64,000 nucleotides of DNA from Gammaproteobacteria bacterium (GTDB taxonomy: Bacteria > Pseudomonadota > Gammaproteobacteria > HK1). Within the stretch, counting starts at the first letter, position 1. The number at the start of each line of letters is the position of its first letter. Of this stretch, positions 7,364 through 64,000 are shown in pieces. Location of the stretch: positions 434,001-498,000 of the forward strand of contig JAJFJU010000012.1 in assembly GCA_021773645.1 (NCBI GenBank). The letters run 5' to 3'. The translations under genes were made by a program, and so were the position numbers. The notes under the pieces were generated by a model. That model did no database searches, was not told the origin of the DNA, and saw nothing but the letters and a program-made list of their open reading frames with translations.

Positions 7364-9511
7364 TTAAAATTTGCCGTAATAACCTTCCTTCAACGCATCG
7401 TAAAGATTAGCGGCGGTATGGGTTTCACCGTCATAGGCAATCTCTTCGTTGCCCTTGGCCTCGACCAAGGTGCCATCCTCCAGAGTGAAGCGGTAGGTGG
7501 TATTTTCCAGGTCCTCCTCCTTCACCAGCACCCCCTGAAAAACCTCTGGATTGAAGCGGAAGGTGGTGCAGCCCTTGAGTTTTTTCTCGTAGGCGTAGAG
7601 GTAAATATCCTTGAAATCCTCGTAGGGAAAGTCCGTAGGCACATTGGCGGTTTTGGAAATGGAGGAATCAATCCATCGCTGCGCCGCAGCCTGCACATCC
7701 ACATGGGCCTTGGGGCTAATATTGTCGGCGCTAATAAAATAATCCGGTAACCCGGCATCGGGCATGGCATCGGCATCCACCAGCGCGTGATAGGCCAGCA
7801 GCTCGAAGGAATAGACGTCCACCTTCTCCTTGCTCTTCTTGCCCTCGCGGATGACGTTGCGGGAGTAATGGTGGGCAAAGCTCGGCTCGATGCCGTTGCT
7901 GGCATTGTTGGCCAGTGACAGCGAGATGGTGCCGGTGGGGGCAATGGAGGTGTGATGGGTAAAGCGCGCACCCACCTCAGCCAATTCATCCACCAACGCC
8001 GGTTCGATCTCCGCCAGGCGCTGCATATAGCGACTGTAGCGGGCGAATAGTAGCTTGCCGTCTACTTTATCCCCCGCTTGGTAGCCATCCACGGCCATCT
8101 CTGGCCGTTGGCGCAGCATTTCCGTGGTCACACTAAAGGATTTTTGCAGCAATGGTGCCGGCCCTTTCTCACGAGCCAACTCCGCCGCAGTACGCCAACC
8201 GACTACCGCTAGCTCCCGTGCGACTTGTTCGGTGAACTCCAGTGAGTCGTCCTCGCCGTAGCGCATCTGCAGCATGGTGAGGGTGGAGCCTAGCCCCAGG
8301 AAGCCCATGCCATGCCGGCGTTTCTCGGTGATCTCCTGGCGCTGTTGTTCCAACGGTAAGCCATTGATCTCCACCACGTTATCCAACATGCGGGTAAATG
8401 TGGCTACGGTTTCGCGGAAACCCTCCCAATCAAAATGAGCATCCGCACCAAAAGGCTGGCGCACAAAGCGGGTGAGATTGATGGAGCCCAACAGGCAGGA
8501 GCCATAGGGAGGTAACGGCTGTTCGCCGCAAGGATTGGTCGCACGCACTTCCTCGCAAAACCAGTTGTTGTTCATCTCGTTGATTTCGTCGATGAGGATG
8601 AAGCCGGGTTCGGCGAAATCGTAGGTGGATGACATCACCAGGTCCCACATCTTACGGGCCTTCAGGGTCTGGTAAATCGCGCAGGCTACTTCGCCGGCAT
8701 CATTTACTACGTAATTTTTATGTACCGGCCAGTTGCGCCAGACGATGTCCTCGGTGGTCAGATCCACACTGCCGTCTTCTACCTCTTTGGCGGTGACCGG
8801 GAAGGCCAGTTGCCAATCCTGATCTTGTTTTACCGCCTCCATGAATTCACGGGTGATGAGCAGCGACAGGTTGAACTGGCGCAGACGGCCATCTTCACGC
8901 TTGGCGCGGATGAAGTCCGGAGCATCGGGATGGCCGATGTCGAAGGTGGCCATCTGGGCACCGCGACGGCCACCAGCAGAGGACACCGTGAAGCACATCT
9001 TGTCGTAGATATCCATGAATGACAGCGGGCCGGAGGTGTAGGCACCGGCACCAGAGACATAGGCACCTTTGGGGCGCAGGGTGGAGAATTCGTAGCCGAT
9101 ACCGCAGCCGGCCTTGAGGGTTAGACCCGCCTCATGAACCTTGCCGAGGATATTGTTCATGGAGTCCTGGATGGCTCCAGAGACGGTGCAGTTGATGGTG
9201 GAGGTAGCGGGTTTGTGTTCCAAGGCGCCGGCATTGGAAATAATGCGTCCCGCGGGGATGGCACCGTGGCGCAGGGCGTGCAGGAAGCGCTCGAACCAGT
9301 GCTCTTGTTTCTCCGGCGTGTCCTCTACATCAGCCAATGCGCGGGCTACCCGCTGAAAGGTGTCATCAATGGCTTCATCCACGGCCTCGCCATCTTTGGT
9401 CTTGAGGCGATATTTTTTGTCCCAGATGTCCAGTGATGCGTCCTGCAAGGGGATATCGATGTTTTCGTCTTCGGGTGCGATGTTCAAAACGGGCTGGTGT
9501 ACGGGGTCCAT
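7364..9511 (-). CDS. nrdJa: class II (B12-dependent) ribonucleotide reductase, NrdJa catalytic subunit
   Basis: 715 residues from the ATG at 9511, which has a strong GGGAGG site just upstream; an in-frame codon at 9607 would add 32 residues of unlikely sequence. It reduces ribonucleotides to deoxyribonucleotides using adenosylcobalamin, without oxygen dependence. Visible family marks are the N-terminal active-site Cys in TINCTVSGAIQDS, the glycine-rich stretch LKAGCGIGYEFSTLRP, and NPCGEQPL with the catalytic Cys and Glu. The C-terminal TSCPD/zinc-ribbon part is missing and is supplied by nrdJb downstream. The leader (9512-9755) holds two NrdR-box matches and a DnaA box, so the operon is probably under the NrdR repressor and tied to replication initiation. 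No cobalamin riboswitch was recognised. Confidence 0.92.
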   Translation of the reverse strand: MDPVHQPVLNIAPEDENIDIPLQDASLDIWDKKYRLKTKDGEAVDEAIDDTFQRVARALADVEDTPEKQEHWFERFLHALRHGAIPAGRIISNAGALEHKPATSTINCTVSGAIQDSMNNILGKVHEAGLTLKAGCGIGYEFSTLRPKGAYVSGAGAYTSGPLSFMDIYDKMCFTVSSAGGRRGAQMATFDIGHPDAPDFIRAKREDGRLRQFNLSLLITREFMEAVKQDQDWQLAFPVTAKEVEDGSVDLTTEDIVWRNWPVHKNYVVNDAGEVACAIYQTLKARKMWDLVMSSTYDFAEPGFILIDEINEMNNNWFCEEVRATNPCGEQPLPPYGSCLLGSINLTRFVRQPFGADAHFDWEGFRETVATFTRMLDNVVEINGLPLEQQRQEITEKRRHGMGFLGLGSTLTMLQMRYGEDDSLEFTEQVARELAVVGWRTAAELAREKGPAPLLQKSFSVTTEMLRQRPEMAVDGYQAGDKVDGKLLFARYSRYMQRLAEIEPALVDELAEVGARFTHHTSIAPTGTISLSLANNASNGIEPSFAHHYSRNVIREGKKSKEKVDVYSFELLAYHALVDADAMPDAGLPDYFISADNISPKAHVDVQAAAQRWIDSSISKTANVPTDFPYEDFKDIYLYAYEKKLKGCTTFRFNPEVFQGVLVKEEDLENTTYRFTLEDGTLVEAKGNEEIAYDGETHTAANLYDALKEGYYGKF

Positions 9512-10764: not shown

Positions 10765-10836
10765 CGTAGGGCGCACCATGTGCGCCGTTGGGCGGTGGTT
10801 ACGATAAAGGTGTTGGCGGGCACGGCCCGCCCTACA
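10765..10836. repeat. REP-type palindromic repeat pair
   Basis: Two inward-facing units: GTAGGGCGCACCATGTGCGCC (10766-10786) and GGCGGGCACGGCCCGCCCTAC at the other end. The same family occurs at 18164, 31297, 31436 and 62850. The distal unit contributes the TAG stop codon of the thioredoxin-fold gene on the minus strand (10834-10832). Confidence 0.8.
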
Positions 10837-11371
10837 TTTCCCGGTTCTCTACCATTTCAAAGTGCTTGCGGAAATAGTTGGCGGTGGCCTGTGGGTCCAC
10901 ATGGAAGTCGTTGTATAACACTTTCCGGTTGGGGTCGATGATGACTACCCAGGGGGTACCGCCGGTGCGGTAGTGCTGCATGATGGCTGAGTGGGGGTGG
11001 CCATTTGGATCTCCGGCATCGTGTCCCATGGGAATGGTGAGTCCGTATTGCTGTTGAAGCTCGGCTACTTTGCCCGGAGTGTTTTCCTCAAAACCTTCAA
11101 ACACCGTTTGCACTGCGGCAAAGCGGATATCTGGATGGTCGCCGAATTCAGCCAATAGCTGTTGCAGTGCGGGAAAGCCATAGCGATGGCAGCCATCACA
11201 CCACGCTTGGAAGAAATACAGATAAATGAAGCGGCGTCGCTGCTCGGCAATGCTGAAACTGCCAGGCTCGCCGTTGGCGTCGATCCATTGGGCTTGAATC
11301 TCCGGAGCCCGTCGGCCAACGATGCCGGGGGTATGGATGTTTTCAAGGGTCTCGGGTGTGTCTGCGGTCAT
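10832..11371 (-). CDS. thioredoxin-fold protein of the TlpA/redoxin type
   Basis: 179 residues without a signal peptide. Thioredoxin-like core: FIYLYFFQAWCDGCHRYGFPALQ with the CxxC active site CDGC near residues 58-61, and the cis-Pro loop TGGTPWVVIIDP near 137-148. The N-terminal segment (GRRAPEIQAQWIDANGE) is like that of redoxins. Such proteins reduce or oxidise disulfides; the lack of an export signal suggests cytoplasmic action, or the start is misplaced. It is transcribed after the cytochrome P460 gene with a gap of 79 bp and may be co-transcribed. The stop codon is provided by a REP element. Confidence 0.8.
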   Translation of the reverse strand: MTADTPETLENIHTPGIVGRRAPEIQAQWIDANGEPGSFSIAEQRRRFIYLYFFQAWCDGCHRYGFPALQQLLAEFGDHPDIRFAAVQTVFEGFEENTPGKVAELQQQYGLTIPMGHDAGDPNGHPHSAIMQHYRTGGTPWVVIIDPNRKVLYNDFHVDPQATANYFRKHFEMVENREM

Positions 11372-18163: not shown

Positions 18164-18256
18164 CGGCGGACATGGTCCGCTCTACTATTCAGTTGGGTGG
18201 CGGTTTTTGTCGGGCGGACCAGTTCCGCCGCTGTGAGGCGGGCACGGCCCGCCTTG
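18164..18256. repeat. REP-type palindromes between gnd and zwf
   Basis: Three related palindromic units: GGCGGACATGGTCCGC (18165-18180), GGGCGGACCAGTTCCGCC and GGCGGGCACGGCCCGCC. They lie in the gnd-zwf gap and could form mRNA hairpins that set the relative stability of the two messages. The short direct repeat CTATTCAG also occurs on both sides of the block. Confidence 0.7.
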
Positions 18257-31300: not shown

Positions 31301-31456
31301 GGCGTGCCGTGCACGCCATTGGGGCGCCGAGGTGAAGCTGGATGGCGGATATGATCCGCCCTACAGCAAAGGGTGTTTGTGAGTTGTAGCTAACACTGTT
31401 TCCAGCTCCAGCCTGATACGCTTGCTCAATCAGCCGTAGGGCGGACCATGTCCGCC
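31267..31456. repeat. REP elements with a 38 bp direct duplication of the dehydrogenase gene end
   Basis: The segment 31267-31304 (end of the dehydrogenase gene plus the first bases of a REP unit) recurs at 31406-31443 with a single mismatch. REP units: GTAGGGCGTGCCGTGCACGCC (31297-31317), GGCGGATATGATCCGCCCTAC (31344-31364) and GTAGGGCGGACCATGTCCGCC (31436-31456). The second copy of the duplication forms the 3' end of the DsbA-like gene on the minus strand. Confidence 0.85.
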
Positions 31457-56059: not shown

Positions 56060-59000
56060 ATGCTGCGCGTTTACCACAGCAACCGCCTTGAGTGCCTGGC
56101 TGGCGAACTAGGGCGGACGCTGGCCGAGCCAGTGGCCGGGCCGCTGGTGCCGGAGACTGTGGTGGTGCAGAGCCCCGGGATGGCGCGTTGGTTGTATCAG
56201 CGTTTGGCAGCCAGACAGGGGATCGCCGCGAATATCGACTTTCCGCTACCGGCTTCTTTCGTGTGGCACTTATTCCGTGGCCAGTCGCCGCAATTACCCG
56301 AGCGTTCCTCCTGTGGTCGTGAGGTGTTGCGCTGGCGCTGTATGGGGCTGCTACCAGCGTTGCTCAAGCAGCGTGAATTCGGTGCTCTCAAACACTTTCT
56401 CGGCCCGGCCCCTACTTCGGAGCGTCGCTTCCAATTGGCAGGGTTGATTGCCGATGTGTATGACCGCTATCTCATCCACCGGCCGGAGCTCATCAGCCGT
56501 TGGGAGGCGGGCAAGGACTCACACTGGCAGGCCAAGCTCTGGCGTGCACTGCGCGAGGCTGATTCCTCACCGCATCGCTCCGGTGTGTTTCTAGAATTCA
56601 AAGCCCGATGGCAGGCGGGCACGGTGGATGAAGCGGCGTTGCCACCCCGTCTCTCGGTGTTTGGGCTGGCCGGTTTGCCGCCGATGTATCTGGAGGTGCT
56701 GGGGTTGTTGGCGGAGCGCATTGAGGTCCATGCCTACGTGCTTAATCCTAGCCAGGCCTATTGGGGAGATATCACCGATCCGAAGCGCATCGGGCGGCTA
56801 CAGGCAAAGTGGCGGCAGGCGGGGAAGTCTAGTGCCGATGCTCATTTTTCTATCGGCAATCCGCTGTTGGCCTCCATGGGCGGTCCGGCGCGAGAGCTGC
56901 TCGAACTCTTGTACGAATATCCCTGTGAGGAACGGGTGCTGGATCAGCAGCCGGAGGGCGGTCATCGCTTGGCGCAAATCCAGCGCGCTATCTACCAGCT
57001 AGAAGATCCCACCACGGGAACTGCGACGAGCGCATTGGTCGAGGATGATCACTCGCTGCAGATACACCGCTGCCATGGACCCATGCGCGAGATGCAGGTA
57101 CTGCACGATCAACTGCTCGCGATGTTTGCGGAGGAGTCGGAGCTTGGGCCGCAGGATATCGTGGTGATGACCCCGGATATCGCCACTTACGCGCCCTATA
57201 TTGAGGCGGTTTTTGCGGCCGTTCCCCGCAAGCGCCATATTCCCTGGGAAATCTCGGATGTTGCGAGTGCAACCGCTACCCGGGTCAGCGCTTGCTTGTT
57301 GCGCTTGCTGGATCTTGGCGAGGGCCGCATGAGCGCGCCGGAGCTGCTGGAGTTGTTGGAGAACCCCTTAGTCGCACGTCGTTATCAGCTGGACTCCGAG
57401 GCGCTGGAAAGGCTGCGTAGCGCCTGCCGGGATAGTGGCATTCGCTGGGGCCTGGACGCTGATGCCCGCAAGGAACTGGGGATACCCACGGCAGCAATCC
57501 ATACCTGGCAGCATGGATTGCGCAGATTACTGCTGGGCTATGCCATGCCTACTGATAGTCCGTCTTTCAATGGTGTCACCCCCTGTGCGGCATTCAGTGG
57601 CCGGGAGGCGGAGTGGCTGGGAATATTGGCGTCTTTTATCGATGACATTGGGCGCTGGCGTCGGCGTCTGCGCCGTAAGTACGAGATGGAGGGCTGGGCC
57701 CGGTTGCTGCCGGAATTGGTAGCGGATTTCATTGCAACCGAGGGGGATGAGGAAGCGGCTGCGGTGCAAATGGTGCTGGCCGGCATGAGCGAGATTGCCA
57801 GTCGGGCGGGCACGGCAGATTTTTCCGAGGCCATCGAGTGCCGGGTCATCAAGGATGCTCTGGAACTTCAACTCAAAGGGGTCTTGGCACAAGAGCGCTT
57901 TCCCGGCGGGCGGGTGACCTTTTGTAGCCTGGTGCCCATGCGCTGCGTGCCTTCTCGTGTGATCTGTCTGGTGGGTATGAACGAGGGCACGTTTCCACGC
58001 CACCATCCGCGCCCTGGTTTTGACCTCATGGAGAAAGCACGTCGCCGTGGCGATCGCGTCGAGCGGGACCTGGATCGCTACTTGTTTCTGGAAGCACTGT
58101 TGTCGGCACGGGATGTTTTCTACATCAGCTACGTAGGGGCTAGCCCACGGGATGATTCACCCATCATGCCGGCAGCCCCGGTGAGTGAGTTACAGGATTA
58201 CGTGACGCGTGCCTGGGGGGAGGACGCGGCTGGCGTGGTCACTGAGCATGCCTTGCAGGCATTTAGCCGGGATTATTTTGGCCAGCAGAACAGTGCGTTG
58301 TTTAGCTATGCCGATGAATGGATGCCACCGGCCCAGACGCAGATGGATGATCCTGCGCCCATGGTGATGGAAGCGCTGGCATCGCCAGAGATGCTGGGTA
58401 AGGGTATTGCCGTGGATGAGTTGGTGGCATTTTTCCGTAATCCGGTGCGTGCTTTCTTACGCAATCGTCTCGGCATTAGCTACTGGGAAGAGGATCTTGG
58501 GCTGGCTGAAACTGAGTCCTTTGGTCTGGACCCTCTGGAGTGCTATGGCTTGCGTGGCGAGTTGCTGGAACAAGCCTTGGCGGGTGAGTCGCCTGCAGCT
58601 TTGGGGCAGTGGGCCAGGGCCAGTGGTTTGTTGCCAGCGGGCGCGGTAGCTGGCCCTTGGTTGGAGAGCCTATTGGGCGAAGTGCTGGAAATGGCGGCGC
58701 AAATCCTGCCGCGTATGGAACAGGCCTTGCCGGCACGCGAGATTGCGTTGGCCATAGACGGCGTTCATTTATACAGTGAAGTGGGTGGTTTGAGTGCCGC
58801 TGGCTGTACCCGCTATCGCGGGGCCAAATTAAAGGGAGAGGACCGTTTGGCCCTCTGGCTACCCCATCTGGTGCTCAATGCGGGAGGCTCCCAGCAGACC
58901 AGCATGCATGTTGCCCTCGACGGTCAGTTGGAACTCGTACCAAAGATTGAGGATGCCGCCCAACACCTCGCCACGCTGGTTGGGCTGTATCAGCGTGGAC

Positions 59001-59242
59001 AGCGCGAGCCGCTGCCCTTTTTTCCCAATAGTGCCTGGGCCTATGCGGTGAGCATGGCCAAGGATGGGGATGAAGGAGTGGCGATGAAAAAGGCGCTGAT
59101 AGTTTGGCAAAGGCAGGAGATGAATCGGCCGGAATATCGCAGTGTCTTTCGCCGCCCGGATCCGCTGGATGCGGTGTTCTGTAGCTTGGCCGAGACCATC
59201 TACGCACCTCTGGTCGCCGCGGTTACCAAAGGTCGCCGATGA
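56060..59242 (+). CDS. recC: exodeoxyribonuclease V gamma subunit RecC
   Basis: 1060 residues, near the usual RecC length. Starts MLRVYHSNRLECLAGELGRTL; family blocks VVVQSPGMARWLYQRLAARQGIAANIDFPLPASFVWHLFR near 30-70, the dead-helicase stretch DIVVMTPDIATYAPYIEAVF, and the PDEXK-like nuclease-dead region including VDELVAFFRNPVRAFLRNRLGI around 800. RecC recognises Chi and splits DNA strands within RecBCD. recB follows with a 4 nt ATGA overlap. Upstream leader is repeat A4. Confidence 0.93.
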   Translation: MLRVYHSNRLECLAGELGRTLAEPVAGPLVPETVVVQSPGMARWLYQRLAARQGIAANIDFPLPASFVWHLFRGQSPQLPERSSCGREVLRWRCMGLLPALLKQREFGALKHFLGPAPTSERRFQLAGLIADVYDRYLIHRPELISRWEAGKDSHWQAKLWRALREADSSPHRSGVFLEFKARWQAGTVDEAALPPRLSVFGLAGLPPMYLEVLGLLAERIEVHAYVLNPSQAYWGDITDPKRIGRLQAKWRQAGKSSADAHFSIGNPLLASMGGPARELLELLYEYPCEERVLDQQPEGGHRLAQIQRAIYQLEDPTTGTATSALVEDDHSLQIHRCHGPMREMQVLHDQLLAMFAEESELGPQDIVVMTPDIATYAPYIEAVFAAVPRKRHIPWEISDVASATATRVSACLLRLLDLGEGRMSAPELLELLENPLVARRYQLDSEALERLRSACRDSGIRWGLDADARKELGIPTAAIHTWQHGLRRLLLGYAMPTDSPSFNGVTPCAAFSGREAEWLGILASFIDDIGRWRRRLRRKYEMEGWARLLPELVADFIATEGDEEAAAVQMVLAGMSEIASRAGTADFSEAIECRVIKDALELQLKGVLAQERFPGGRVTFCSLVPMRCVPSRVICLVGMNEGTFPRHHPRPGFDLMEKARRRGDRVERDLDRYLFLEALLSARDVFYISYVGASPRDDSPIMPAAPVSELQDYVTRAWGEDAAGVVTEHALQAFSRDYFGQQNSALFSYADEWMPPAQTQMDDPAPMVMEALASPEMLGKGIAVDELVAFFRNPVRAFLRNRLGISYWEEDLGLAETESFGLDPLECYGLRGELLEQALAGESPAALGQWARASGLLPAGAVAGPWLESLLGEVLEMAAQILPRMEQALPAREIALAIDGVHLYSEVGGLSAAGCTRYRGAKLKGEDRLALWLPHLVLNAGGSQQTSMHVALDGQLELVPKIEDAAQHLATLVGLYQRGQREPLPFFPNSAWAYAVSMAKDGDEGVAMKKALIVWQRQEMNRPEYRSVFRRPDPLDAVFCSLAETIYAPLVAAVTKGRR

Positions 59243-62200
59243 GCGCGCTACACAAGCTCGATCTTTTCGAGGTGCCACTGCGCGGGGTTAGCCTTATTGA
59301 GGCCAGTGCTGGCACTGGCAAGACCTACGCCATCGTTGCCCTCTACTTGCGCCTGTTGCTGGAGGAGCGCCGTGATGTAAGCGAGATCCTGGCGGTGACC
59401 TTTACCGAGGCCGCAACTCAGGAGTTGCGCGGGCGTTTGCACCAGGCCTTGCTATCAGCCGAGGCCGCCCTGGCGGGTGATGACGGGGGCCAGGAGGACT
59501 TCATAGTGAAGTTGATGGCCCGCCTGTCCGATAAACCCGAGGCCCTGGAGCGGGTGCGAGATGCCATTATCCGGCTGGATGAGGCCGCGGTGTATACCAT
59601 TCATGGTTTTTGTCATCGGGTACTGCGTGATCATGCCTTCGAGTGTGGCGTCGACCTGCACAGCAGCTTGGTGAAGGATGAAGTAGCACTGCAACACGTG
59701 GTCATGGAGGACTTCTGGCGTCGTCGCGTGCAGCATGCCCCGACGGCGGAATTTGGCTGGATATACGCTTGCTGGAAGGGTCCTGAACAGCTATTAAATG
59801 AGGTGCGGGATCTGGCGGGCTTTCATGGCCTGCAATTGTTGGGGGTGCCGACAGCGGATGAGTTGGCGGCCATGGCGGAAGGCGTGAATGGCTTGCACCA
59901 GTCCTTATCCATGGCTTGGTCAGCCGACCGTGATGAGTTATGGGAAATGCTGGCAAATGATCCGCATCTGTCGCGAGCGGTTAAGACGTATCGGGCCGAC
60001 AGGCTGGAGGCTGCCGCCGATGCAATGGATGAGCTCTGCGCTGCCCCCGCCGCCCCGGCCATGTTGCCAGCGGACATTGCACTATTCACCGCCGAGTTTC
60101 TTATGGCATCGGTCAAGCCGGCGGCACTGAAAAAAGGTAACGGCCCCCCGGAACATCCATTTTTTGAACGTTGCGAGCGCTATGTGCTAGCCAGTGAAGC
60201 TTGGTTGCAGGGGCGACGGGCCGGTTTTCTGGCTGCGGCAGTGGAGTGGTTTCAAATAGAGGGCCAGCAGCGACGCGCGCAGGCACAGGAGTGGAATTTC
60301 GAGGATCTGCTGGCCGAGGTGCAACGGGCGGTCACTGGAGCTGCCGGCCCGCAGATCTGTGCAAAGCTGCGGACCCGTTTCCCGGTGGCGCTCATTGACG
60401 AATTTCAGGATACCGACCCACTGCAGTGGGATATTTTCCATGCGCTGTGGGTAGGAGCGGCCAAGACGGGGCTGTTTCTGGTGGGGGATCCCAAGCAGGC
60501 TATCTATGGTTTCCGGGGAGCGGATGTTTTCACCTACTTTCGGGCCCGTAAGATGGTGGGTCCACTGGCAGCATCCTTCGGTATGGCGACCAACTGGCGT
60601 GCTAGCTCGGCGTTGGTGGCGGCGCTTAACCGTCTGTTTGGTGAAACCGCCAATCCCTTTTTGTATGCCGACAGTATCCAATATCACCCGATCGAGGCCG
60701 CTGGAAAGACCGATGAACGACCGCTTAGCCTAGCGGGCATCCAGCCTGCTCCTTTGCAATTCTGGCTGTTGCGACGGGAAGGCAAGCAGAAGGTGATTAA
60801 CAAGGGTGTTGCCCAAGATCGTCTGGCGGCGGCCTGTGCCGCGGAAATTTCGCGCCTGCTGACTCTAGCGGTGCGCGGTGAGGCAGTGATTGGCGAGAAG
60901 GCTTTGCGACCTGCAGACATTGCGGTACTGGTGCGTACTAACAAAGAGGCGGCCTTGCTATGCCGGCACCTCACCGTAGCCGGGGTTGCCAGTGTGTATA
61001 GCAGCCGCAGTAGCGTTTACGAGAGCGATGAGGCCACCGAGTTGCATTGGCTGCTGGCGGCGTTAGCGGAGCCAGGCGATGCTCGCCGTATTGCCGCGGC
61101 CCTCGGTACGGCATTGATGGGCGTTGCTGGCCGGGAGTTGCTGGCCTTTCATGATGATCCCGCGGTGCGGGTTCGCTGGGTGCAGCGTTTCCAGCGCTAT
61201 CATCAGCATTGGTGCGAGCGGGGCTTTATCCCGATGCTCTATCGTTTGTTGTGGGAGCAGGGTATTCCCGGCCAGCTTTTGTGTCAGGCGGATGGCGAGC
61301 GCCGTCTGACCAATTTGCTGCATCTGGCGGAACTGTTACAGCAGGCCGATGAGGAGCAGGCTGGACCCGAGACGCTATTGCGCTGGTATCAGCAAGCGCG
61401 GGTTAACGCTGATGGCAAACAGGATGATCAGCAATTGCGTCTTGAAAGCGACGCCAAGCGGGTGCAGGTGCTGACCGTACATCGCAGCAAAGGACTGCAG
61501 TACCCCATCGTTTTCCTGCCCTTTCTTTGGGATGGCCGTGACGAGGAAAAGAGCGATACCGTGCTGTTTCACGACTCGGAAGGCATCCATAGCGCCGATC
61601 TTGGTTCTGCCGCACGTCCAGCACATATCAAACTCATGGGGCGCGAGGCGCGCGCCGAGGCCGTACGCTTGAGTTATGTGGCCCTGACTCGTGCCTCCCA
61701 TCTTTGCTATATCGGCTGGGGTCAAATCAAAGGAGTGGAATTGTCTGCCTTGGCTGCATTGCTCCATCCCGTGGACCCGGAGGTGAATGCAGGCAGTGCC
61801 ATCGGGCAATTGGATGACGCGGGCATTGGTGCCGGGATCGAGCAGCGTCTGGGGGACGGGGTGAATATTGGCCCGCTCCCCGAGGCGCGTGTGTTTGCCC
61901 CCGATACGGCTAGTGCAGACAGCGTTCCCCAGGCTCGGCTTTTGTTGGGAAAGGTAGGCCCCGGTTGGCGGGTGGTGAGCTATAGCGCCCTGGCCTCTGG
62001 TCAGGAGGATGGGGATGAGGGGCTGGAGTATGAGCGAGAGCTGGACGTGGAGCCTTCCGAGCCTAGGGTTGAGCGGATAGTAAATCCACTAGCATTGCCC
62101 AAGGGGGCTCAGGCCGGGAACTTGCTGCATGGGCTGCTGGAGCAGCTGGATTTCCCCACGGCCCAGGGACCCTTGCTGCGCGAGGCGATAATTGCAGCTC

Positions 62201-62802
62201 TGCAGCGTGATGGCTTCGACTCGGCTTGCGCAGCGGCGGTAGAGATACTCATCGCTAATCTTCTTGATACCCCCTTAGATAGTGCGGGGACATTGCGCTT
62301 GCGTGATATCGGGGTCGGACAGAAGTGTGCGGAGCTGAGTTTTTGGTTCCCGGTCCTGGGCTTGAAGGCCAAAGACTTGAATGCGGTATTAGCGCGCTAT
62401 CAGGTGCCGGGCAACCACGCTTATCACTTCCGCGAAATCATGGGGATGATGAAGGGCTATATCGATCTGGTGTTTGAACATCAGGGGCGCTATTACCTGG
62501 CAGACTATAAATCCAATCACCTGGGTGACAATCCTGGGGCCTATGATGCGGCGGCGCTGGCGGAGGCCATGGCTGCCCATCACTACGAGTTGCAGTACCT
62601 CATCTACGCGGTTGCCCTCCATCGTCACCTTGCAACCCGTATCCCAGACTATGACTACGACACCCATTTCGGGGGTGTTTACTATCTCTTTCTGCGCGGT
62701 ATCGAGCCGGCTCTGGGGCCCGTTAGTGGCATCTATTTTGATCGCCCGGAACGTGCCCTTATCGAGTCCCTGGATGGCCTTTTTGCAGGGGGGGTCGTAT
62801 GA
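59239..62802 (+). CDS. recB: exodeoxyribonuclease V beta subunit RecB
   Basis: 1187 residues with UvrD-type helicase and C-terminal nuclease. Walker A ASAGTGKTYAI (about 22-32), Walker B IDEFQDTDPLQWDIF (near 385-400), DPKQAIYGFRGADVFTYF, VLTVHRSKGLQYPIVFLP and YVALTRASH. The nuclease active site ends in GYIDLVFEHQGRYYLADYKSNHLGD (Asp and DYK, about 1075-1100). A 3'-5' helicase and nuclease of RecBCD, needed for double-strand break repair. Stop codon overlaps a small ORF (ATGA) that leads to recD. Confidence 0.95.
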   Translation: MSALHKLDLFEVPLRGVSLIEASAGTGKTYAIVALYLRLLLEERRDVSEILAVTFTEAATQELRGRLHQALLSAEAALAGDDGGQEDFIVKLMARLSDKPEALERVRDAIIRLDEAAVYTIHGFCHRVLRDHAFECGVDLHSSLVKDEVALQHVVMEDFWRRRVQHAPTAEFGWIYACWKGPEQLLNEVRDLAGFHGLQLLGVPTADELAAMAEGVNGLHQSLSMAWSADRDELWEMLANDPHLSRAVKTYRADRLEAAADAMDELCAAPAAPAMLPADIALFTAEFLMASVKPAALKKGNGPPEHPFFERCERYVLASEAWLQGRRAGFLAAAVEWFQIEGQQRRAQAQEWNFEDLLAEVQRAVTGAAGPQICAKLRTRFPVALIDEFQDTDPLQWDIFHALWVGAAKTGLFLVGDPKQAIYGFRGADVFTYFRARKMVGPLAASFGMATNWRASSALVAALNRLFGETANPFLYADSIQYHPIEAAGKTDERPLSLAGIQPAPLQFWLLRREGKQKVINKGVAQDRLAAACAAEISRLLTLAVRGEAVIGEKALRPADIAVLVRTNKEAALLCRHLTVAGVASVYSSRSSVYESDEATELHWLLAALAEPGDARRIAAALGTALMGVAGRELLAFHDDPAVRVRWVQRFQRYHQHWCERGFIPMLYRLLWEQGIPGQLLCQADGERRLTNLLHLAELLQQADEEQAGPETLLRWYQQARVNADGKQDDQQLRLESDAKRVQVLTVHRSKGLQYPIVFLPFLWDGRDEEKSDTVLFHDSEGIHSADLGSAARPAHIKLMGREARAEAVRLSYVALTRASHLCYIGWGQIKGVELSALAALLHPVDPEVNAGSAIGQLDDAGIGAGIEQRLGDGVNIGPLPEARVFAPDTASADSVPQARLLLGKVGPGWRVVSYSALASGQEDGDEGLEYERELDVEPSEPRVERIVNPLALPKGAQAGNLLHGLLEQLDFPTAQGPLLREAIIAALQRDGFDSACAAAVEILIANLLDTPLDSAGTLRLRDIGVGQKCAELSFWFPVLGLKAKDLNAVLARYQVPGNHAYHFREIMGMMKGYIDLVFEHQGRYYLADYKSNHLGDNPGAYDAAALAEAMAAHHYELQYLIYAVALHRHLATRIPDYDYDTHFGGVYYLFLRGIEPALGPVSGIYFDRPERALIESLDGLFAGGVV

Positions 62803-62948
62803 GCAGAATTGCTTTCACTCGCCCCACGTGGCAACGGGCTACGTTCACCGTAGGGCGGACCATGTCCGCCTTCGCCTCGCCACATCATCGCAATGGCGGA
62901 CATGGTCCGCCCTACGCAGCTGGCCACCTTGCTGGCGAGTTGTCATGA
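62799..62948 (+). CDS. 49-residue bridging ORF between recB and recD, partly REP-derived
   Basis: ATG at 62799 overlaps the recB stop (ATGA) and TGA at 62946-62948 overlaps the recD ATG (62945, ATGA). The 49 codons (start MSRIAFTRPTWQ, end GHLAGELS) run through an inverted REP pair at 62850-62915. It probably arose when a REP unit inserted in a recB-recD junction; reading through it would keep translational coupling. Not recognised as a protein; expression unproven. Confidence 0.5.
   Translation: MSRIAFTRPTWQRATFTVGRTMSAFASPHHRNGGHGPPYAAGHLAGELS
62850..62915. repeat. REP inverted pair between recB and recD
   Basis: GTAGGGCGGACCATGTCCGC starts at 62850 and its exact inverse ends at 62915 (21 bp arms with a 24 bp centre). 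This is the best-preserved pair of the REP family in the window. Confidence 0.9.
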
Positions 62949-64000
62949 GCGTGCTGGCCGGTTTGCGGCGGATGGTAGGCGACGGTGATGTACGCGAGTT
63001 GGACTGGCACTTTGCCCGTTTTATGGCGCAACTCGATAGCGCGGAAAGTGCAGACCCAGTATTGGGAGCCTGTCTCGCCAGTGCTGCCGTGGGCCGTGGT
63101 AGTACCTGTTTGCGTCTTTCCACCTGGGCGGGTCAGACGCTTGCCGGGGGACTGCAAGTTCCCGCGCGGAAGGATTGGCAACAAACGCTCGAGGCCTCAT
63201 CGGTGGTGGGTGCGCCGGGAGAGCATGCTCCGCTTATCTTTGATGGCGATGAGCGACTGTATCTCGCTCGTTATTGGCAGGAGGAGGGGGTGCTGGCCAA
63301 GGCCCTGCGGGAGCGTGCTTTGGCGCTGCCTTCGGATGCGGATGAGGCGCTGCTTGAACGCGGTCTGGAACGGATGTTTCCAGGTGATGCCGGAGAAGCC
63401 GGTAGTCAGCGTGCCGCTGCCGCCATGGCGGTGCGCCATTCTCTGGCGGTGATCTCCGGCGGTGCGGGTACCGGCAAGACCCATACCGTGGCACGTATTC
63501 TTGCGCTGCTGGCGGAGCAGGCTTCAGCCGATAACTGGTGTGCCTTACTTGCGGCACCCACTGGCAAGGCGGCGGCGCGTTTGGCCGAGGCGGTGCGGGC
63601 GCAGAAGGTAGAACTCGGCATGGATGCGGTATTGCCTGAAACCGCGAGTACCCTGCATCGCTTGCTGGGCTATGGGGGTGGGGGTTCACCCCGCTACCAT
63701 GCCGGACGGACGCTTGTTGCTGATGTGGTGGTGGTGGATGAGGCCTCCATGGTGGACTTGCCGATGATGCGGGCACTGGTGGACGCCCTTGCCCCCACCA
63801 CCCGCCTGATTTTGCTGGGTGACAAAGATCAGCTTAGCTCGGTGGAAGTGGGTACGGTGCTCGGTGATATCTGTATTGCTGCCGGGAAGGGTGGGGTGCT
63901 CGGCCCCTGTGTACAAACTTTGCAGAAAAGCCGGCGCTTTGCTGAGTCCCAGGGTATTGGGCAGTTAGCCATGGCGATCAACGCGGGCGATAGTGAGCGG
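62945..64000 (+). CDS. recD: exodeoxyribonuclease V alpha subunit RecD, cut by window end
   Basis: 352 codons visible, no stop in the window. ATG at 62945 (TCATGAGC) follows the bridging ORF. N-terminal domain with RELDWHFARFMAQLDSAES; helicase Walker A ISGGAGTGKTHTVARIL (about 168-184); ALLAAPTGKAAARLAEAV; ASTLHRLLGYG; Walker B VVVVDEASMVDLPMM; LILLGDKDQLSSVEVGTVLGD. These are RecD superfamily 1 5'-3' helicase motifs. The N-terminal ~165 residues are of usual RecD length, so the gene looks intact despite the REP upstream. Confidence 0.95.
   Translation, partial: MSVLAGLRRMVGDGDVRELDWHFARFMAQLDSAESADPVLGACLASAAVGRGSTCLRLSTWAGQTLAGGLQVPARKDWQQTLEASSVVGAPGEHAPLIFDGDERLYLARYWQEEGVLAKALRERALALPSDADEALLERGLERMFPGDAGEAGSQRAAAAMAVRHSLAVISGGAGTGKTHTVARILALLAEQASADNWCALLAAPTGKAAARLAEAVRAQKVELGMDAVLPETASTLHRLLGYGGGGSPRYHAGRTLVADVVVVDEASMVDLPMMRALVDALAPTTRLILLGDKDQLSSVEVGTVLGDICIAAGKGGVLGPCVQTLQKSRRFAESQGIGQLAMAINAGDSER

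Follow-up and report, generated by a model that had tools for sequence, protein, structure and literature searches.

Mycobacterial interspersed repetitive units (MIRUs) are described as mobile repeats with a place at start codons or coupling sites, where an ORF inside the repeat and the adjacent gene are linked at -4 nt; this arrangement is thought to minimise harm to expression (PMC12548453). The termini of REPs with a GTAG head often furnish genes with TAG stops, and some repair genes, such as recB of Xanthomonas, are also known to harbour REPs (PMC3733652). Gene pairs with a -4 overlap are enriched for subunits of one complex, and for gene pairs of E. coli, reinitiation falls by 80-90% or is lost altogether once 38 nt separate the two genes (PMC10666635). 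In E. coli, recB and recD belong to one operon, and the recB stop overlaps the recD start by 1 nt with no insert (PMC2586629). DNA inserted between tightly coupled operon genes should leave a complex short of one of its subunits, and we describe here a recB-recD junction of a gammaproteobacterium at which such an insert is found.

The window is a 64-kb stretch of the genome G000, and its positions are used as the G000 coordinates. It includes a recC-recB-recD operon, of which the last gene (578 aa in full length) continues beyond the window end. The recC/recB overlap is ATGA. The recB and recD genes stand in one operon as in E. coli, whereas in G000 they are separated by a gap of 142 nt, which is bridged by a mini-ORF whose ATG overlaps the recB TGA and whose TGA overlaps the recD ATG (Table 1). 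The coordinates that the first-pass annotation had given were all exact, including those of the 49-codon ORF with ATGA at the recB stop and at the recD start. Because a gap of only 38 nt removes most or all reinitiation in E. coli, recD would be expected to lose its coupling to recB across a bare gap of 142 nt that contains a strong hairpin. The junction resembles the systems known for -4 termination-reinitiation coupling in its ATGA overlaps, in the subunits of one complex that it joins and in the short ORF that feeds the next gene (PMC6728339, PMC10666635, PMC12548453), and it differs from these and from upstream-ORF systems in that the putative relay ORF comes from a mobile repeat in the middle of an operon.

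Table 1. Features of the recC-recB-recD operon and of the recB/recD junction in G000 (window positions).
Feature	Position	Strand	Description
recC	56060..59242	+	Pfam Exonuc_V_gamma E 2e-90, RecC_C E 3e-53; first gene of the operon
recB	59239..62802	+	NCBIfam TIGR00609 recB E 1e-277; 1187 aa; stop TGA 62800-62802
Shine-Dalgarno-like AGGGGGGG	62787..62794	+	end of recB; now 5' of the mini-ORF
Bridging mini-ORF	62799..62948	+	49 codons plus stop; ATGA overlaps at both ends
Left ATGAGC, 6-bp direct repeat at the insert edge	62799..62804	+	recB stop / mini-ORF start; G000 and G002 sequence
REPIN 5' flank within the insert	62805..62849	+	common to G002
Left REP, GTAG-tagged, GTAGGGCGGACCATGTCCGCC	62850..62870	+	in-frame reading VGRTMSA
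REPIN spacer / hairpin loop, 24 nt	62871..62894	+	
Right REP, GTAG on the minus strand	62895..62915	-	in-frame plus-strand reading GGHGPPY
His-Gly-Pro-Pro, mini-ORF codons 35-38	62901..62912	+	same in G002; reported nascent-peptide arrest motif (PMC12992588)
3' flank	62916..62944	+	29 nt; strongly diverged in G002 (47 nt)
recD	62945..64000	+	Pfam RecD_N E 8e-19, NCBIfam TIGR01447 recD E 2e-81 (in-window part)
Right ATGAGC copy	62945..62950	+	mini-ORF stop / recD start; G000 and G002 sequence

The repeat inside the mini-ORF had been described as a REP palindrome. Its perfect 21-bp arms in frame were confirmed, but the element is a REP doublet (REPIN) and not a single REP: the arms are complementary over their full length across the spacer, and the RNA hairpin was folded at -47.7 kcal/mol. 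The REP core GGCGGACNNNGTCCGCC has 41 exact copies in the 2.49-Mb genome versus 0 for a reversed control pattern, the full GTAG head is present on 34 of the genome's REP cores, and inverted pairing is common among the copies, with many further doublets. A RAYT gene (REP_Tyr_transpos NF047646, E 1e-55; L046:7648-8181, own contig C4:505648-506181) lies 8.7 kb past the recB-recD insert and is flanked by REPs at 7576 and 8216, both in the same orientation; its orthologues in two congeners, G001 and G002, likewise have REPs on both sides. By these sequence features, namely the GTAG head with a short palindrome, the inverted doublet forming a hairpin and a nearby RAYT gene with its REPs, the recB-recD element is classified as a REPIN of the GTAG class (PMC3116915, PMC3733652). 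In contrast to the described GTAG REPs, it is situated at a gene-gene overlap and would be read as a separate linker ORF, not inside one protein, and it is accompanied by about 75 nt of non-REP flank with the ATGAGC repeat at both edges. No second copy of the insert flanks was found in its own genome and no convincing one in the congeners, and an Rfam scan gave chance matches only, below the gathering score (mir-600, HOTTIP_3).

Other REPs of these genomes were noted in passing. The window has three more REP doublets (10766-10835, 18165-18229 and 31344-31456), two of them with the GTAG ends inward. Four genes have a TAG stop that seems to come from the GTAG end of a REP overlapping them by 4 nt (window 10832-11371 on the minus strand, L054:697-2709, L057:2730-3677 and L063:2323-4986). 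A second Y1 transposase match (L009; own contig C28:320116-320445) has one in-frame TGA, which may reflect a decayed copy or a sequencing error. A REPIN between converging genes (L055:2916-2983, with L073 and L084) occupies one site in each of the three species, and its spacer and flanks are well conserved, which suggests that some REPIN sites are kept over long periods.

The junction was compared with those of G001 (MAG OFTM98) and G002 (MAG OFTM50), which are of the same genus as G000. The G001 junction is empty, with a direct GTGA overlap (-4) of recB and recD; insert-free ATGA or GTGA junctions were also found in several distant genomes (L018, L020-L023, L030, L045). Because G001 and several distant relatives have direct overlaps, the filled junction is derived, in agreement with the first-pass annotation, which had read it as an insertion. 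G002 has the same REPIN and the same 5' flank between recB and recD. There the ATG-to-ATG distance is 164 nt versus 146 nt in G000; the 3' flank is longer by 18 nt, which leaves the phase unchanged, and the bridging frame is open over 55 aa and shares a final ATGA with the recD start. At its upstream end G002 has a +1 spacing in place of the first overlap, recB ending with TAG one nucleotide before the mini-ORF (TAG-T-ATG). Across the insert of G000, the mini-ORF frame and the recD frame are both free of stops on the forward strand, and in G002 this is true of the bridging frame alone. Frame disruption in a relative, which had been named as evidence against a preserved frame, was looked for, and the G002 frame was found open despite the 18-nt change and 11 substitutions. 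Note that the recD frame of G000 is open far upstream (62474-64000, plus strand), through the insert into recB, so that automatic annotation could misplace the recD start; an N-terminal extension of recD back to 62474 was considered and rejected, since the corresponding frame in G002 has stops and the extension is not conserved.

G000 and G002 agree fully in the two REP arms and in the frame in which these are read; they differ at 6 of 48 positions in the stretch from the ATG to the REP and at 5 of 24 in the spacer, while the fourfold sites of recB and recD differ by 46-48%. This likeness was rejected as proof of selection because it is not specific: the flanks of other REPINs shared by the genomes are similarly conserved (12-27% different). 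The first 23 nt of the mini-ORF (62799-62822 and the G002 equivalent) are identical in the two species, with a small hairpin in both.

ATGAGC stands at each edge of the insert in both G000 and G002. A repeated edge is expected among the survivors, because an insertion without a repeated ATGA would destroy either the recB stop or the recD start. Since the repeated edge by itself yields the first ATGA overlap, this overlap needs no selection, and only the second, in-phase overlap between the mini-ORF and recD requires explanation. REP elements are akin to IS200/IS605-type systems. Such systems are not known to make target duplications, so a larger rearrangement may have brought the REPIN along. 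The G001 state may mean that the insert was never there, or that it was lost precisely, for example by slippage between the ATGAGC copies. In gene trees within the genus, RecD groups G001 with G002 (88/82) and a ManC-type protein groups G000 with G001 (84/38), a weak disagreement under which there may have been either a gain in G000 and G002 or a loss in G001.

The bridging frame could also be a matter of chance. In that case the insertion would have been neutral, the ATGAGC edges having spared both genes, and recD would start independently at its own site. Among frames at the outward-tagged REP doublets examined, 14 of 108 are open over -48/+29 nt, so a REPIN without stops in a given frame is no rarity per se; what is unusual is a frame in phase at both ends. 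The origin of the first overlap from the repeated edge fits a neutral insertion too, as do the many REPs that lie between co-directional genes of these genomes without a bridge. In the fetched stretches of three genomes, 31 co-directional gene pairs bear REPs (with gene starts crudely taken from the longest ORF), and a bridge in phase at both ends was found in none of the 29 pairs other than recB-recD of G000 and G002, although these two junctions count as little more than one case because the species are related. In simulations, the conserved part of the frame stayed open after 11 substitutions with a probability of 0.73 and the new 3' flank of G002 was open with a probability of 0.32; with one third for phase, the combined chance of a kept frame in G002 is 0.077. 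These values suggest that retention of the frame is favoured, while a chance of about 0.08, which the neutral explanation can claim as its own, is not decisive and does not prove selection. Against neutrality, no forward frame other than the bridging one is open across the insert of G002, and the length change is in phase.

The ribosome-binding sites bear on the same question. Shine-Dalgarno strength was expressed as the energy of the duplex with the anti-Shine-Dalgarno sequence, which is -11.5 (G000) and -8.6 (G002) kcal/mol before the mini-ORF, and -3.0 (G000), -6.6 (G002) and -7.2 (G001) kcal/mol before recD. The strong site at the end of recB in G000 matches in position the G-rich stretch that precedes recD in the insert-free G001. 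The value of -3.0 for recD in G000 is weak for an independent start; on the other hand, the scores are also weak at recB (-3.9) and recC (-2.9) of G000, so that the weak site at recD is not special, and G002 has GGAG upstream of recD at -6.6. Taking both sides together, we regard a neutral insertion with an independently started recD as somewhat unlikely, yet as an explanation of some weight.

We lean instead towards a reading in which the REPIN insert serves as a translated frame that keeps the synthesis of RecD coupled to that of RecB, and from the sequences compared we judge it somewhat more probable than not. A REPIN of the resident GTAG-REP/RAYT family would have been inserted, together with about 75 nt of DNA on its flanks, at the 4-nt recB/recD overlap, and with ATGAGC at both edges neither the recB stop nor the recD start would have been lost. 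The new short frame would then lie behind the ribosome-binding site that had formerly served recD, and the retained form would be the one in which this frame crosses the REPIN without a stop and closes in an ATGA shared with recD. Ribosomes finishing recB would restart at the mini-ORF, would unwind the hairpin as they translate it and would then restart at recD, the mini-ORF acting as a relay with a peptide whose sequence is not conserved. Translation of the mini-ORF, the kept coupling and selection holding the frame are thus putative parts of this proposal. In its favour are the direct overlaps in G001 and the outgroups, the open G002 frame with its in-phase change, the lack of bridges at the other 29 pairs, the Shine-Dalgarno pattern and the mainly non-synonymous codon changes described below. 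Against it are the chance of about 0.08, the occurrence of the insert in only two related species, TAG-T-ATG and the -6.6 kcal/mol site in G002, and the weak scores at recB and recC. The first-pass annotation had proposed that the insertion preserved the hand-over from recB to recD; the open bridging frame of G002 agrees with this, but the first overlap is lost there, recD has a fair site of its own, and the frame could have been kept by chance.

The peptide itself is not conserved. Eight codons changed between G000 and G002, and the residue is altered in six of them; the C-terminal 10-16 residues of the two peptides are unrelated. A profile search of the mini-ORF peptide against protein families gave no match. 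A functional peptide was rejected because of the lack of a family match and the mostly non-synonymous change, and since the peptide is not conserved, it would be translation itself that matters, not the product. That the mini-ORF encodes a functional small protein therefore appears extremely unlikely to us: the frame is open in two species and its first eight codons give the same amino acids in both, but much of the mini-ORF is translated REP.

The hairpin might have a role in its own right, alone or with a pause motif in frame, by lowering or tuning RecD relative to RecB. The right REP arm reads Gly-Gly-His-Gly-Pro-Pro-Tyr in the mini-ORF frame of G002 as well as of G000, which places HGPP at residues 35-38 of 49 in G000 and of 55 in G002. 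Arrest sequences obtained by random screening in E. coli include HGPP, a motif that is under-represented in bacterial proteomes (PMC12992588) and absent from the 44 long ORFs (19,345 aa) of the window. Ribosomes in the relay may thus pause at this motif shortly before they reach recD. The stability of the hairpin and the identity of the arms and their frame in G002 are likewise consistent with attenuation, but HGPP may be incidental, because it is fixed by the sequence of the REP arm once read in this frame, and conservation of the arms is usual among shared REPINs. Neither an intrinsic terminator nor an internal promoter was found when both were looked for at the junction. The hairpin ends 29 nt before the recD ATG in G000 (29-47 nt over G000 and G002), and the recD start region is no less accessible than others (mean unpaired 0.46 and 0.37). 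On balance, attenuation of RecD by the hairpin seems unlikely. Still less credence can be given to the more specific idea that the REPIN is a regulatory leader of recD, in which the HGPP pause and the hairpin would make the RecD:RecB ratio respond to translation conditions; this we consider very improbable.

Viewed as a translated relay, the junction is closest to the MIRUs: the empty site is a start/stop overlap in relatives, and in both G000 and G002 the ORF of the insert has a 4-nt overlap with the gene that follows. Unlike the MIRUs, the element is a GTAG REPIN with a RAYT gene in a gammaproteobacterium, of a sequence that we regard as unrelated, and the bridge is found here only at the recB-recD copy (0 of 29 others), whereas it is apparently a family-wide property of MIRUs. 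The junction thus works like a MIRU insertion, and we do not file it as a MIRU because its sequence family is that of the GTAG REPINs, for which coupling sites are not a general target. Insertions of the MIRU type and REPs in repair genes were known already; what is useful here is that empty, filled and length-changed states of one junction occur in one genus. The three-species junction suggests that a selfish repeat can be tolerated through its conversion to a translated relay. If this is true, the MIRU idea would extend to the widespread REPIN/RAYT elements, and a simple rule based on phase and stops would predict which repeat insertions within operons survive.
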